A stretch of 64,000 bases of DNA from Lacinutrix sp. Hel_I_90 (GTDB lineage Bacteria > Bacteroidota > Bacteroidia > Flavobacteriales > Flavobacteriaceae): contig NZ_JYNQ01000001.1 in the NCBI RefSeq assembly GCF_000934685.1, positions 1,166,501 through 1,230,500 of the forward strand, given 5' to 3'. Numbering within the stretch: position 1 is the first letter of the stretch; every line of letters begins with the position of its first letter. The notes under the pieces were generated by a model. It saw only the letters and a program-made list of their open reading frames with translations. It was not told the DNA's origin and did no database searches. Shown in pieces: positions 50,081 to 52,769 of this stretch. Both the position numbers and the translations under genes were made by a program.

Positions 50081-51322
50081 ATGTCATTTAAAGACCTAAA
50101 GCTTAACAGACCATTATTACGTGCCATTGCCGAAAAAGGCTACGACAACCCAACGCTTATTCAAGAGCGTACCATTCCGTTAGTTTTAGATAAAAAAGAT
50201 GTCATTGCTTCTGCACAAACGGGAACTGGAAAAACAGCGGCGTTCGCCTTGCCCATTTTGCAGTTGCTGTATGATAAACAAGAAGCTCCAAAAAAAGGTA
50301 AAAAAATACGTGCGGTTGTGGTTAGTCCTACTCGGGAATTGGCCATCCAAATTCAGGAAAACTTTGAAGGTTACGCCACATATACTAATTTAACCTCTGC
50401 TGTTATTTATGGAGGAACTGCTATTGAGCCTCAAAAAGAGCGCTTAAAAGCAGGTGTCGATATCTTAATTGCGACACCAGGTCGTTTACTCGATTTACAT
50501 AAGCAAGACAGTCTCAATTTAGATTATGTAGAAACCTTAGTTTTAGACGAAGCAGATTTAATGCTAGACATGGGTTTTATAGATGATGTCAAAAAGATTG
50601 AAAGACTCTGCCCTAAAGAAAAACAGACACTCTTGTTTTCAGCAACAATCCCTTACAAGGTTGAACAATTAGCGAATGGCATCTTAAAAGCACCTAAACG
50701 TATTGAAGTTTCCCAGAATTCTTCAACGTCTAAAAATGTTGAGCAAGCCTTATATTTCGTGCCTAAACCAAAAAAAATCGAATTGTGTTTGCACTTGCTC
50801 CGCGATACAATAAAAGGACGCATCATTATTTTTCGTAGAACAAAATATGGTGTTGATAAACTAGAAAAAACGCTACTTAAAAACAACTATAAAGTAGATA
50901 GTATTCATGGTGATAAAAGCCAGACACTACGTCAAGAGGCATTAAGTGATTTTAAGAAAAATAAGGTGGATATTTTAATTGCAACTGATGTTGCCGCGCG
51001 TGGTATTGATGTTGATGATGTGGATGCGGTTATTAATTTCGATATGCCAAATGTACCTGAAACCTATGTGCATCGTATTGGAAGAACGGCGCGTGCCGGT
51101 AATACTGGTGCCTCTTATTCCTTTTGCTCTGCTGATGAAAAAGAATATGTAAAAGCGATACAACAACTTATAAATCTTCAGTTAAATGTCGTAGAAGACC
51201 ATCCGTATCCTTTAGATCCCAAAGCTAAAAAAGAAGTGCATACCTCTAATAAAACTGGAAGTAAGCACAGAAAAGGACGGAAGAGCGAAGGCTCGAAAAA
51301 GAAAAAGAAACGTTGGTACTAA
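50081..51322 (+). CDS. DEAD-box ATP-dependent RNA helicase, RhlE-like
   Basis: This 413-residue enzyme has every DEAD-box motif in order: Q motif with GYDNPTLIQERTIP, ASAQTGTGKTAAFALPIL (I), PTRELAIQI (Ia), ATPGRLLDL (Ib), VLDEADLMLDMGF (II), LLFSATIP (III), DVAARGIDVDDVDAV (V) and HRIGRTARAG (VI). The C-terminal tail is strongly basic (KTGSKHRKGRKSEGSKKKKK), typical of RhlE/cold-shock type helicases that bind structured RNA. It acts in rRNA or mRNA remodelling. Its stop codon overlaps the stop of the convergent minus-strand gene by a few bases. Confidence 0.96.
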   Translation: MSFKDLKLNRPLLRAIAEKGYDNPTLIQERTIPLVLDKKDVIASAQTGTGKTAAFALPILQLLYDKQEAPKKGKKIRAVVVSPTRELAIQIQENFEGYATYTNLTSAVIYGGTAIEPQKERLKAGVDILIATPGRLLDLHKQDSLNLDYVETLVLDEADLMLDMGFIDDVKKIERLCPKEKQTLLFSATIPYKVEQLANGILKAPKRIEVSQNSSTSKNVEQALYFVPKPKKIELCLHLLRDTIKGRIIIFRRTKYGVDKLEKTLLKNNYKVDSIHGDKSQTLRQEALSDFKKNKVDILIATDVAARGIDVDDVDAVINFDMPNVPETYVHRIGRTARAGNTGASYSFCSADEKEYVKAIQQLINLQLNVVEDHPYPLDPKAKKEVHTSNKTGSKHRKGRKSEGSKKKKKRWY

Positions 51323-51717
51323 ACCTCTAAGCGATTATTAAAATACTGTTTAAGGAGCGGCAATTGTACCAGGAGCATGATGCCAAATAAAACAATGGCA
51401 TATAGTGCTGTACTTGAAATATTAAGCTCAGGAATTAATGCTGTCATCTTAATATTAGACCTTGTACTAAACCAACTTTCAGTAGTAAGCACCTTAGCAA
51501 ATACAGCAAAACCTAACAACCCACTAAAAACTAAGCCTAGTATATACCAGACTTTTTTAGAAATAAGTGGGGTGTATTTTACGCTTTTATTTTCTGATAG
51601 TAGGACCACTTCTTGCATTACCTGAGCAGTAAAATTAAACGAAGGGGATTCTAAAGATGCGGTATCAAATAATTTCTTAGACCATTCATCTAATTGCTTT
51701 TCTTTATTATCGCTCAT
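51319..51717 (-). CDS. Membrane partner of the ECF sigma factor, candidate anti-sigma factor
   Basis: This 132-residue protein has a soluble N-terminal part (about 1-50, EKQLDEWSKKLFDTASLESP) followed by two membrane helices near 55-75 and 103-122. It starts within the last 11 nt of the sigma factor gene, so the two are translationally coupled. Small proteins with a cytoplasmic head, one or two helices and this position usually hold an ECF sigma factor at the membrane. No zinc-finger ZAS motif (HxxxCxxC) is present, so if it is an anti-sigma factor it is of another class. The assignment rests on context. Confidence 0.8.
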   Translation of the reverse strand: MSDNKEKQLDEWSKKLFDTASLESPSFNFTAQVMQEVVLLSENKSVKYTPLISKKVWYILGLVFSGLLGFAVFAKVLTTESWFSTRSNIKMTALIPELNISSTALYAIVLFGIMLLVQLPLLKQYFNNRLEV

Positions 51718-52285
51718 AATGTTCTAGTATTTCTGGTTCTAACTGTGCTCTTAAAATAGCAGCTAACTTTTTTCGACTTCTAAATAATTTGACCTTAACA
51801 TGATTCGCTTTTAAACGCATTGCTTTTGCTATCTCATCTAAAGATTGTTCTTCATAATAATACAAGGTGAGTATAAATGAATCTGCGATTGGCAACTGGT
51901 TTAAACACCTTAGTATGGCTTCATTTCGTTCTTTAATTTCCATAGCAAATAAGGTATCGTCTATCGTCTGGATTTGATGTTCTGTAAACGCATCAATAGT
52001 AACAGTGCTGTGCGTCCGCTTTAACTTTTTAATACGATCTAAACAGGTATTGTAAGACACTCTGTACACCCAGGTTGAAAATTTTGAATCTCCTTTAAAT
52101 TTCGCTAAATTCTTATATACCTTTACAAATACATCCTGCGCTACTTCTTCAGCTTCTTCCCTATTCTTAGTCATTGTTAAGGCTAAGGTGAATACCAAAT
52201 CTTTGTAACGGTCTACCAGTACTGCATAAGCATGGGTATCGCCTTCTAATACTTTAGTAATATAATGTTGGTCGTTGGTGGTCAT
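51707..52285 (-). CDS. ECF-type RNA polymerase sigma factor
   Basis: With the ATG at 52285 this is a protein of 192 residues. Region 2 is YAVLVDRYKDLVFTLALTMT, NREEAEEVAQDVFVKVYKNL and FSTWVYRVSYNTCLDRIKK; region 4 is LNQLPIADSFILTLYYYEE, QSLDEIAKAM and VKVKLFRSRKKL. The frame is open 25 codons further up, but that stretch contains the TGTAAC-N17-CGTC promoter, so the upstream ATG at 52360 is rejected. The predicted transcript start is only a few bases before the ATG, giving an almost leaderless mRNA. The gene is coupled to the membrane protein downstream. It probably controls its own promoter and the divergent one. Confidence 0.95.
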   Translation of the reverse strand: MTTNDQHYITKVLEGDTHAYAVLVDRYKDLVFTLALTMTKNREEAEEVAQDVFVKVYKNLAKFKGDSKFSTWVYRVSYNTCLDRIKKLKRTHSTVTIDAFTEHQIQTIDDTLFAMEIKERNEAILRCLNQLPIADSFILTLYYYEEQSLDEIAKAMRLKANHVKVKLFRSRKKLAAILRAQLEPEILEHYER

Positions 52286-52295
52286 CTGCTCATTA

Positions 52296-52322
52296 GACGA
52301 CCACTTAATACCCGCGGTTACA
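52296..52322 (-). promoter_or_regulatory. ECF-type promoter of the sigma factor gene
   Basis: On the minus strand TGTAAC (52322-52317) and CGTC (52299-52296) are separated by 17 nt. This is the -35/-10 layout of ECF sigma factors. It sits 10 nt before the sigma factor ATG, which suggests autoregulation. Confidence 0.7.
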
Positions 52323-52351
52323 CCCTGAAAGAAAAAATAGTTTAAAAAAGT

Positions 52352-52378
52352 TGTAACCATCAGTTAAATGTTATCGTC
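52352..52378 (+). promoter_or_regulatory. ECF-type promoter of the DUF6249-like gene
   Basis: On the plus strand TGTAAC (52352-52357) and CGTC (52375-52378) are again separated by 17 nt. It is the mirror copy of the promoter of the divergent sigma factor gene. The two -35 elements are 29 bp apart. The gene at 52425 starts 46 nt after the -10. Confidence 0.7.
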
Positions 52379-52424: not shown

Positions 52425-52769
52425 ATGGGATCAGAAGTCATTATTATGCCAATTATAATTGGATCAATTTTCGGAATATTTTATTTGTATTTTTCAACTA
52501 GAAATAGAGAACGCTTAGCCTTAATAGAGAAAGGTGCAGACGCCAGTATTTTTGGCAAAGGTCAAGAACATACTGCGCCTATATGGAAAGTACTTATTTT
52601 GAATATCGCATTACTTTTAATGGGTATTGGATCTGGTATTTTTATCGCCATGCTATTAGAAACTTATACCACTATAGATGAAGGTGCTATCTATCCGGCT
52701 TGTATCTTTTTAATGGCCGGATTAGCCTTATTTGCAGGTTTTAAGATGACTAAACAACTGGACAAGTAA
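52425..52769 (+). CDS. DUF6249-like small membrane protein
   Basis: This 114-residue protein starts MGSEVIIMPIIIGSIFGIFY and has three hydrophobic segments: about 4-24, 52-76 and 88-105. Between the first and second lies the conserved STRNRERLALIEKGADASIF, the pattern seen in DUF6249-type proteins of Bacteroidota. Function unknown. It is transcribed away from the ECF sigma factor gene and carries an identically spaced ECF-type promoter, so it is a likely regulon member, perhaps an envelope stress protein. A very strong terminator follows, so it is monocistronic. Confidence 0.85.
   Translation: MGSEVIIMPIIIGSIFGIFYLYFSTRNRERLALIEKGADASIFGKGQEHTAPIWKVLILNIALLLMGIGSGIFIAMLLETYTTIDEGAIYPACIFLMAGLALFAGFKMTKQLDK

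Follow-up and report, generated by a model that had tools for sequence, protein, structure and literature searches.

Bacteroidota possess many ECF sigma factors, few of which have known promoters or anti-sigma partners. The closest described systems are autoregulated ECF/anti-sigma operons of the RpoE-RseA and SigW-RsiW type. Hallmarks of ECF factors are AAC at -35, CGT at -10 and positive autoregulation (PMC8103513). Class I anti-sigma domains accompany only 6% of Bacteroidetes ECFs (PMC7406223), and class II anti-sigma segments have also been described (PMC8103513). For F. psychrophilum, PMC9723704 describes a CGT-box motif, SM6, found at mapped starts that include an ECF/anti-sigma operon; low-nutrient induction is a further mark of this promoter class.

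The locus analysed here belongs to Lacinutrix sp. Hel_I_90 (GCF_000934685.1, contig NZ_JYNQ01000001.1, positions 1,166,501-1,230,500 of the forward strand), whose genome measures 3.8 Mb and whose closest named matches come from Lacinutrix and further Flavobacteriaceae. This stretch of 64,000 nt is called the window throughout. Judging from its sequence elements, an 83 bp segment of the window very probably constitutes a bidirectional promoter read by the adjacent ECF sigma factor, serving on one side the operon of that factor and a putative anti-sigma factor and on the other a DUF6249 gene. The features are as follows.

51319..51717, minus strand: 132-aa protein with two TM helices, putatively an anti-sigma factor; 11-nt overlap with the sigma gene; role suggested by position and topology
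51707..52285, minus strand: ECF sigma factor, 192 aa; Pfam regions 2 and 4; ATG 10 nt past CGTC
52296..52299, minus strand: -10 CGTC of the sigma-operon promoter, followed by TAA
52317..52322, minus strand: -35 TGTAAC of the sigma-operon promoter; C at base 7; kept in 78/80 loci
52323..52351, no strand: A-tract-rich stretch of 29 bp between the facing -35 boxes (relatives: median 30 bp)
52352..52357, plus strand: -35 TGTAAC of the DUF6249 promoter; C at base 7; kept in 80/80 loci
52375..52378, plus strand: -10 CGTC of the DUF6249 promoter, followed by TTA
52425..52769, plus strand: DUF6249 membrane protein (PF19762), 114 aa, three predicted helices

Promoter elements and their conservation

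The two -35 boxes face one another across the 29-bp A-tract-rich stretch, possibly a shared upstream element, and the -10 boxes lie outward, towards the sigma gene and DUF6249. The initial annotation had described TGTAAC and CGTC on both strands, back to back, with 17 nt between them, and this layout is exact (52322-52296 on the minus strand, 52352-52378 on the plus strand). These are the only two matches to TGTAAC-N17-CGTC in the window, compared with a mean of 0.07 matches, and never two, in 100 dinucleotide shuffles. AAC at -35 and CGT at -10, as expected of an ECF target promoter, are both present at the level of sequence. Across the whole genome, a bare count of TGTAAC-N16/17-CGTC shows no enrichment (16, vs 15 for the reversed pattern), and the fuller consensus TGTAACC-N16-CGTCNTA, with at most one mismatch, returns three matches, namely both window sites and one within a coding frame.

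Conservation was assessed in 80 named Flavobacteriaceae loci retrieved through the DUF6249 protein alone, independently of the DNA motif. A strong ECF relative is present in 79 of the 80, and in 78 it is divergent within 600 bp. When CGTC is required and spacings of 15-19 are allowed, the element is found in 76/80 loci on the DUF6249 side and 69/80 on the sigma side, always at spacing 17; nearly all seeming exceptions have AGTC or TGTC in the same position. Once NGTC is allowed (GTAACC-N16-NGTC), spacing 17 occurs in 80/80 loci on the DUF6249 side and 78/80 on the sigma side, counts that are not independent trials because the loci share descent. Spacings of 16, 18, 19 or 20 were not found in the 80 loci, and the spacing-14 matches arise where the same -10 reads GTCGTC. 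The comparison of orthologous spacers proposed in the initial annotation, in which loss would speak against the promoters, therefore finds both elements kept, which supports its prediction that the factor drives its own operon and a small membrane protein. The first selection had TGTAAC and CGTC among its criteria; base 7 (C), the NTA after the -10 and the fixed spacing lay outside it, and all three are nearly invariant across loci, with spacer letters diverging widely as the elements stay constant. A strict-consensus scan covering 149 Flavobacteriaceae genomes, nearly one per genus, returns 111 sites, mostly as divergent pairs (36 pairs counted), vs 16 for the reversed control. A bidirectional promoter of ECF type is conserved together with a module of three genes. 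In distant classes the DUF6249-ECF neighbourhood is kept, and a spacing-17 DUF6249 site occurs in a minority of loci.

Variants of the -10 that differ in its first base, AGTC or TGTC, occur in L109, L122, L134, L139, L147, L150, L158, L175 and L179. Three of these loci have the same altered -10 at both promoters (A/A twice, T/T once: L122, L158, L150), and in six it is changed on the sigma side only. Co-variation of the two -10 elements is only suggested by this pattern; the matched variants may reflect an altered -10 preference of the factor.

Rearranged loci provide a natural test. DUF6249 and the sigma gene are found on one strand in L051, L068 and L071, with a single site ahead of the first gene; in some order-level relatives and in G034 (L034/L071, L035/L068 and L051) the two genes share an operon whose only spacing-17 site lies ahead of DUF6249. 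In L057 the two genes lie ~1 kb apart, each with its own site, the sigma-side site at spacing 16. The sigma gene is ~3 kb off in L115 and absent within reach in L136, and in both cases DUF6249 retains its site. Since the sites persist in rearranged loci, the element belongs to the transcripts, not to the spacer. This bears on the reading of the inverted elements as an operator, bound by a repressor or activator protein, rather than as sigma promoters, a reading suggested by the inverted repeat itself, which matches its reverse complement at 44 of 83 positions. An operator would be expected to hold its symmetry distance, whereas the distance between the two halves ranges from 20 to 395 nt with only the 17 nt within each half fixed, and single elements stay before single transcripts when the locus is rearranged. 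We consider an operator very improbable and retain the bidirectional promoter.

The sigma factor, its putative membrane partner and DUF6249

The long sigma frame comprises 217 aa from a start at 52360 and takes in the promoter. Within it, PF04542 spans residues 48-116 and PF08281 residues 147-199, with 30 residues between. The protein thus has sigma regions 2 and 4 only and a linker of fewer than 50 residues, as is characteristic of ECF (group IV) factors, and its original identification as such stands. A coding start upstream, with the similarity to promoter elements incidental, would accord with the openness of the 217-aa frame in the window as well as in three relatives of the same genus, but in-frame stops occur in several other genera. 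Moreover, among 69 loci the 25 codons upstream form an open frame in 13, vs 14 and 4 for the other two frames, and conservation is held by the promoter elements rather than by codons. We give the 217-aa protein almost no credence; because these 25 codons are open no oftener than the other two frames, they are read as non-coding, in agreement with the initial annotation.

The ATG of the 192-aa protein lies 9-11 nt past CGTC in 67/70 loci, and 10 nt past it in the window. At ECF promoters, transcription starts ~7 nt past CGTC. If this applies here, the sigma leader would measure 2-4 nt, and the sigma mRNA should be nearly leaderless; the short leader foreseen in the initial annotation accordingly extends, as a prediction, to the orthologues. 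For comparison, PMC9723704 puts the share of leaderless mRNAs in F. psychrophilum at 5.5%. The DUF6249 ATG lies mostly 45-50 nt past CGTC, and an ordinary leader of ~40 nt is predicted for that mRNA. In one relative, L029/L062 (G018:C1:300784-301420), the sigma gene is split across several frames with both promoters intact, which represents either a broken gene or a sequencing error.

In 73 of 75 orthologues, the protein encoded by the gene overlapping that of the sigma factor has two TM helices. The product has no Pfam or NCBIfam match at 0.001, and a weak RseA_N match (0.016) appears in 1 of 34 relatives. Comparison with RsiW gives a match at chance level only (E 0.33). The window protein has no Cys or His, and shows neither a recognisable domain nor the Hx3Cx2C zinc motif by which class I anti-sigma factors are known. 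Its structure model places two N-terminal helices ahead of the first TM helix (mean pLDDT 70), which would be in keeping with a short anti-sigma segment of class II-like type; the models of this protein and of DUF6249 are of moderate confidence, and a fold search with them returned no match. Of the membrane partner that had been proposed, the conserved two-TM protein is confirmed, and its anti-sigma role, with no family match, is putative only.

The rightward gene, originally called DUF6249-like, is a member of that family, matching PF19762 over residues 7-109 with 50.7 bits (gathering cut-off 33). It has a conserved RNxERxALIEKGAD segment after the first predicted helix. A literature search for the function of DUF6249 found no paper, the only text match being a plant gene family. 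Among 60 relatives, 20 have DUF6249, comprising the 19 with a best ECF match of E <=1.4e-33, in which the genes are neighbours, and G053, in which the DUF6249 and ECF genes are also adjacent. In a sample spanning the phylum, DUF6249 occurs in 75 of 247 genomes, and an ECF gene lies within ~1.5 kb in 55 of the 56 DUF6249 loci examined. With ~20 ECF genes per genome, such proximity is estimated to arise by chance in only a few per cent of cases.

Reach of the regulon and a second ECF factor

Searching the window's genome with the full consensus revealed no target outside the locus. A relaxed pattern applied to nine genomes placed 18 of 25 matches at the locus (control, 20). The seven off-locus matches precede a PF00144 serine hydrolase in two genomes and an esterase in one, with the rest inside genes, and no common regulon was found among them. 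Strict off-locus matches in G035, G039, G040 and G057 were rejected as targets, all of them lying within coding frames. The two hydrolase sites (G001:C14:74246-74274, L199; G031:C4:3344-3372, L204) take the form GTAACC-N16-CGTCCAA before related secreted PF00144 (beta-lactamase-fold) serine hydrolases of two genera, and this hydrolase may be an additional target of the ECF factor linked to DUF6249. Small lineage-specific regulons are likewise possible. At L082 (G034:C8:528-557, minus strand) another strict site, lying past the end of the anti-sigma gene, precedes an outer-membrane-type protein with a carboxypeptidase-regulatory-like N-terminus, its gene clipped by the contig end.

The same two boxes also stand before the gene of another factor. 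In the window's genome, an ECF gene of the GFO_1088/PG0214 family (G000:C1:3612686-3613262; L016, L246) follows TGTAACAAAA, at spacing 16 to CGTC. Members of this family have their own upstream element in 26 of 30 loci, always TGTAACA and always at spacing 16. TGTAAC-N16-CGTC with A at base 7 is, on this sequence evidence, a second and distinct ECF promoter class of the same genome. Intergenic N16 sites in that genome precede the GFO_1088-family factor, a DUF4870 protein, an ABC transporter ATPase and two exported proteins, the last three named by sequence. The window sigma factor scores 96.5 bits against NF058625, below the cut-off of 130, and so falls outside the GFO_1088/PG0214 family. The regulon search over N16/17 proposed in the initial annotation would therefore merge two regulons, spacing 16 with A being the signature of the GFO_1088/PG0214-family factor; a search for the window's ECF regulon should be made at spacing 17 with C at base 7. 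One gene mixes both classes: a rhodanese-like gene (L015, G000:C1:3229440-3229466) lies behind TGTAACA at spacing 17 to CGTC, and the code of spacing and base 7 is for that reason not absolute.

Other ECF factors are present in the window's genome, which calls for caution, as cross-reading of promoters is possible. The promoters could be real and yet be read mainly by another factor, such as the GFO_1088/PG0214-family one, the locus being an outpost of a larger network. More than 10 ECF-like genes in the genome, the shared boxes before the GFO_1088-family gene, and the partly overlapping ECF regulons suggested for F. psychrophilum in PMC9723704 all lend this some weight. Nevertheless, all 26 elements found for that family have spacing 16 and A, as opposed to 17 and C in the window locus, and the spacing-17 C-type element tracks the locus, being present in the genomes that have it. 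ECF factors are, moreover, stringent on spacer length; M. tuberculosis sigma-H, for instance, performs best with a 17 bp spacer and less well with 16 or 18 (PMC6411747). Reading chiefly by another factor is in our estimation unlikely, and we infer that the one-base difference in spacer keeps both regulons apart. Autoregulation by the neighbouring factor, as the conserved element implies, is likely.

Proposed mechanism and comparison with known systems

Restraint of the sigma factor by the putative anti-sigma two-TM protein is likely from the arrangement of the genes, and a membrane or envelope trigger is a plausible candidate for its release. The two-TM protein would hold the sigma factor at the inner membrane in an inactive state until an envelope or membrane signal frees it. 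The freed factor would boost its own operon, giving positive feedback together with more anti-sigma for shut-off, and would also boost DUF6249, which might act as a protective output or as a third sensor part. A wider proposal, to which we assign something short of an even chance, is that the ECF module spans the phylum and has DUF6249 as its dedicated third regulatory part, that its targets are almost limited to its own locus, that one spacer base and the base after TGTAAC insulate it from the sister ECF, and that selection keeps the sigma mRNA near-leaderless.

Like operons of the RpoE-RseA and SigW-RsiW type, the locus encodes a factor with regions 2 and 4 only and a short linker, has AAC/CGT boxes before its own operon, and carries a membrane protein gene directly downstream. 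It differs from them in that the two-TM putative anti-sigma has no recognisable class I domain and that a divergent DUF6249 gene uses the common promoter region. Factors of the CnrH-CnrY and EcfG-NepR type (class II) offer a likeness in the short two-helix cytoplasmic segment before a membrane helix, here predicted by a model of only moderate confidence; they differ in showing no detectable sequence similarity, and two TM helices are present here. SM6 promoters, as described in PMC9723704, are also flavobacterial with a CGT box at -10, and their targets there include a rhodanese gene and secretion (T9SS) genes, a larger regulon. SM6 may match the other ECF family, since the rhodanese site in the window's genome is of the TGTAACA type. 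The GFO_1088/PG0214-family ECF (NF058625) shares the genomes and has TGTAAC and CGTC boxes before its own gene, but at spacing 16 with A at base 7 rather than 17 with C. These coexisting 16- and 17-nt spacers form a natural pair with which to test how ECFs of the same genome avoid cross-talk. The locus supplies a sharply defined promoter for a Bacteroidota ECF, TGTAACC-N16-NGTCNTA, and connects DUF6249, an uncharacterised family of membrane proteins, with an ECF module throughout the phylum. Set beside the known systems, it is an ordinary kind of ECF switch, strongly conserved, with a newly visible partner family.
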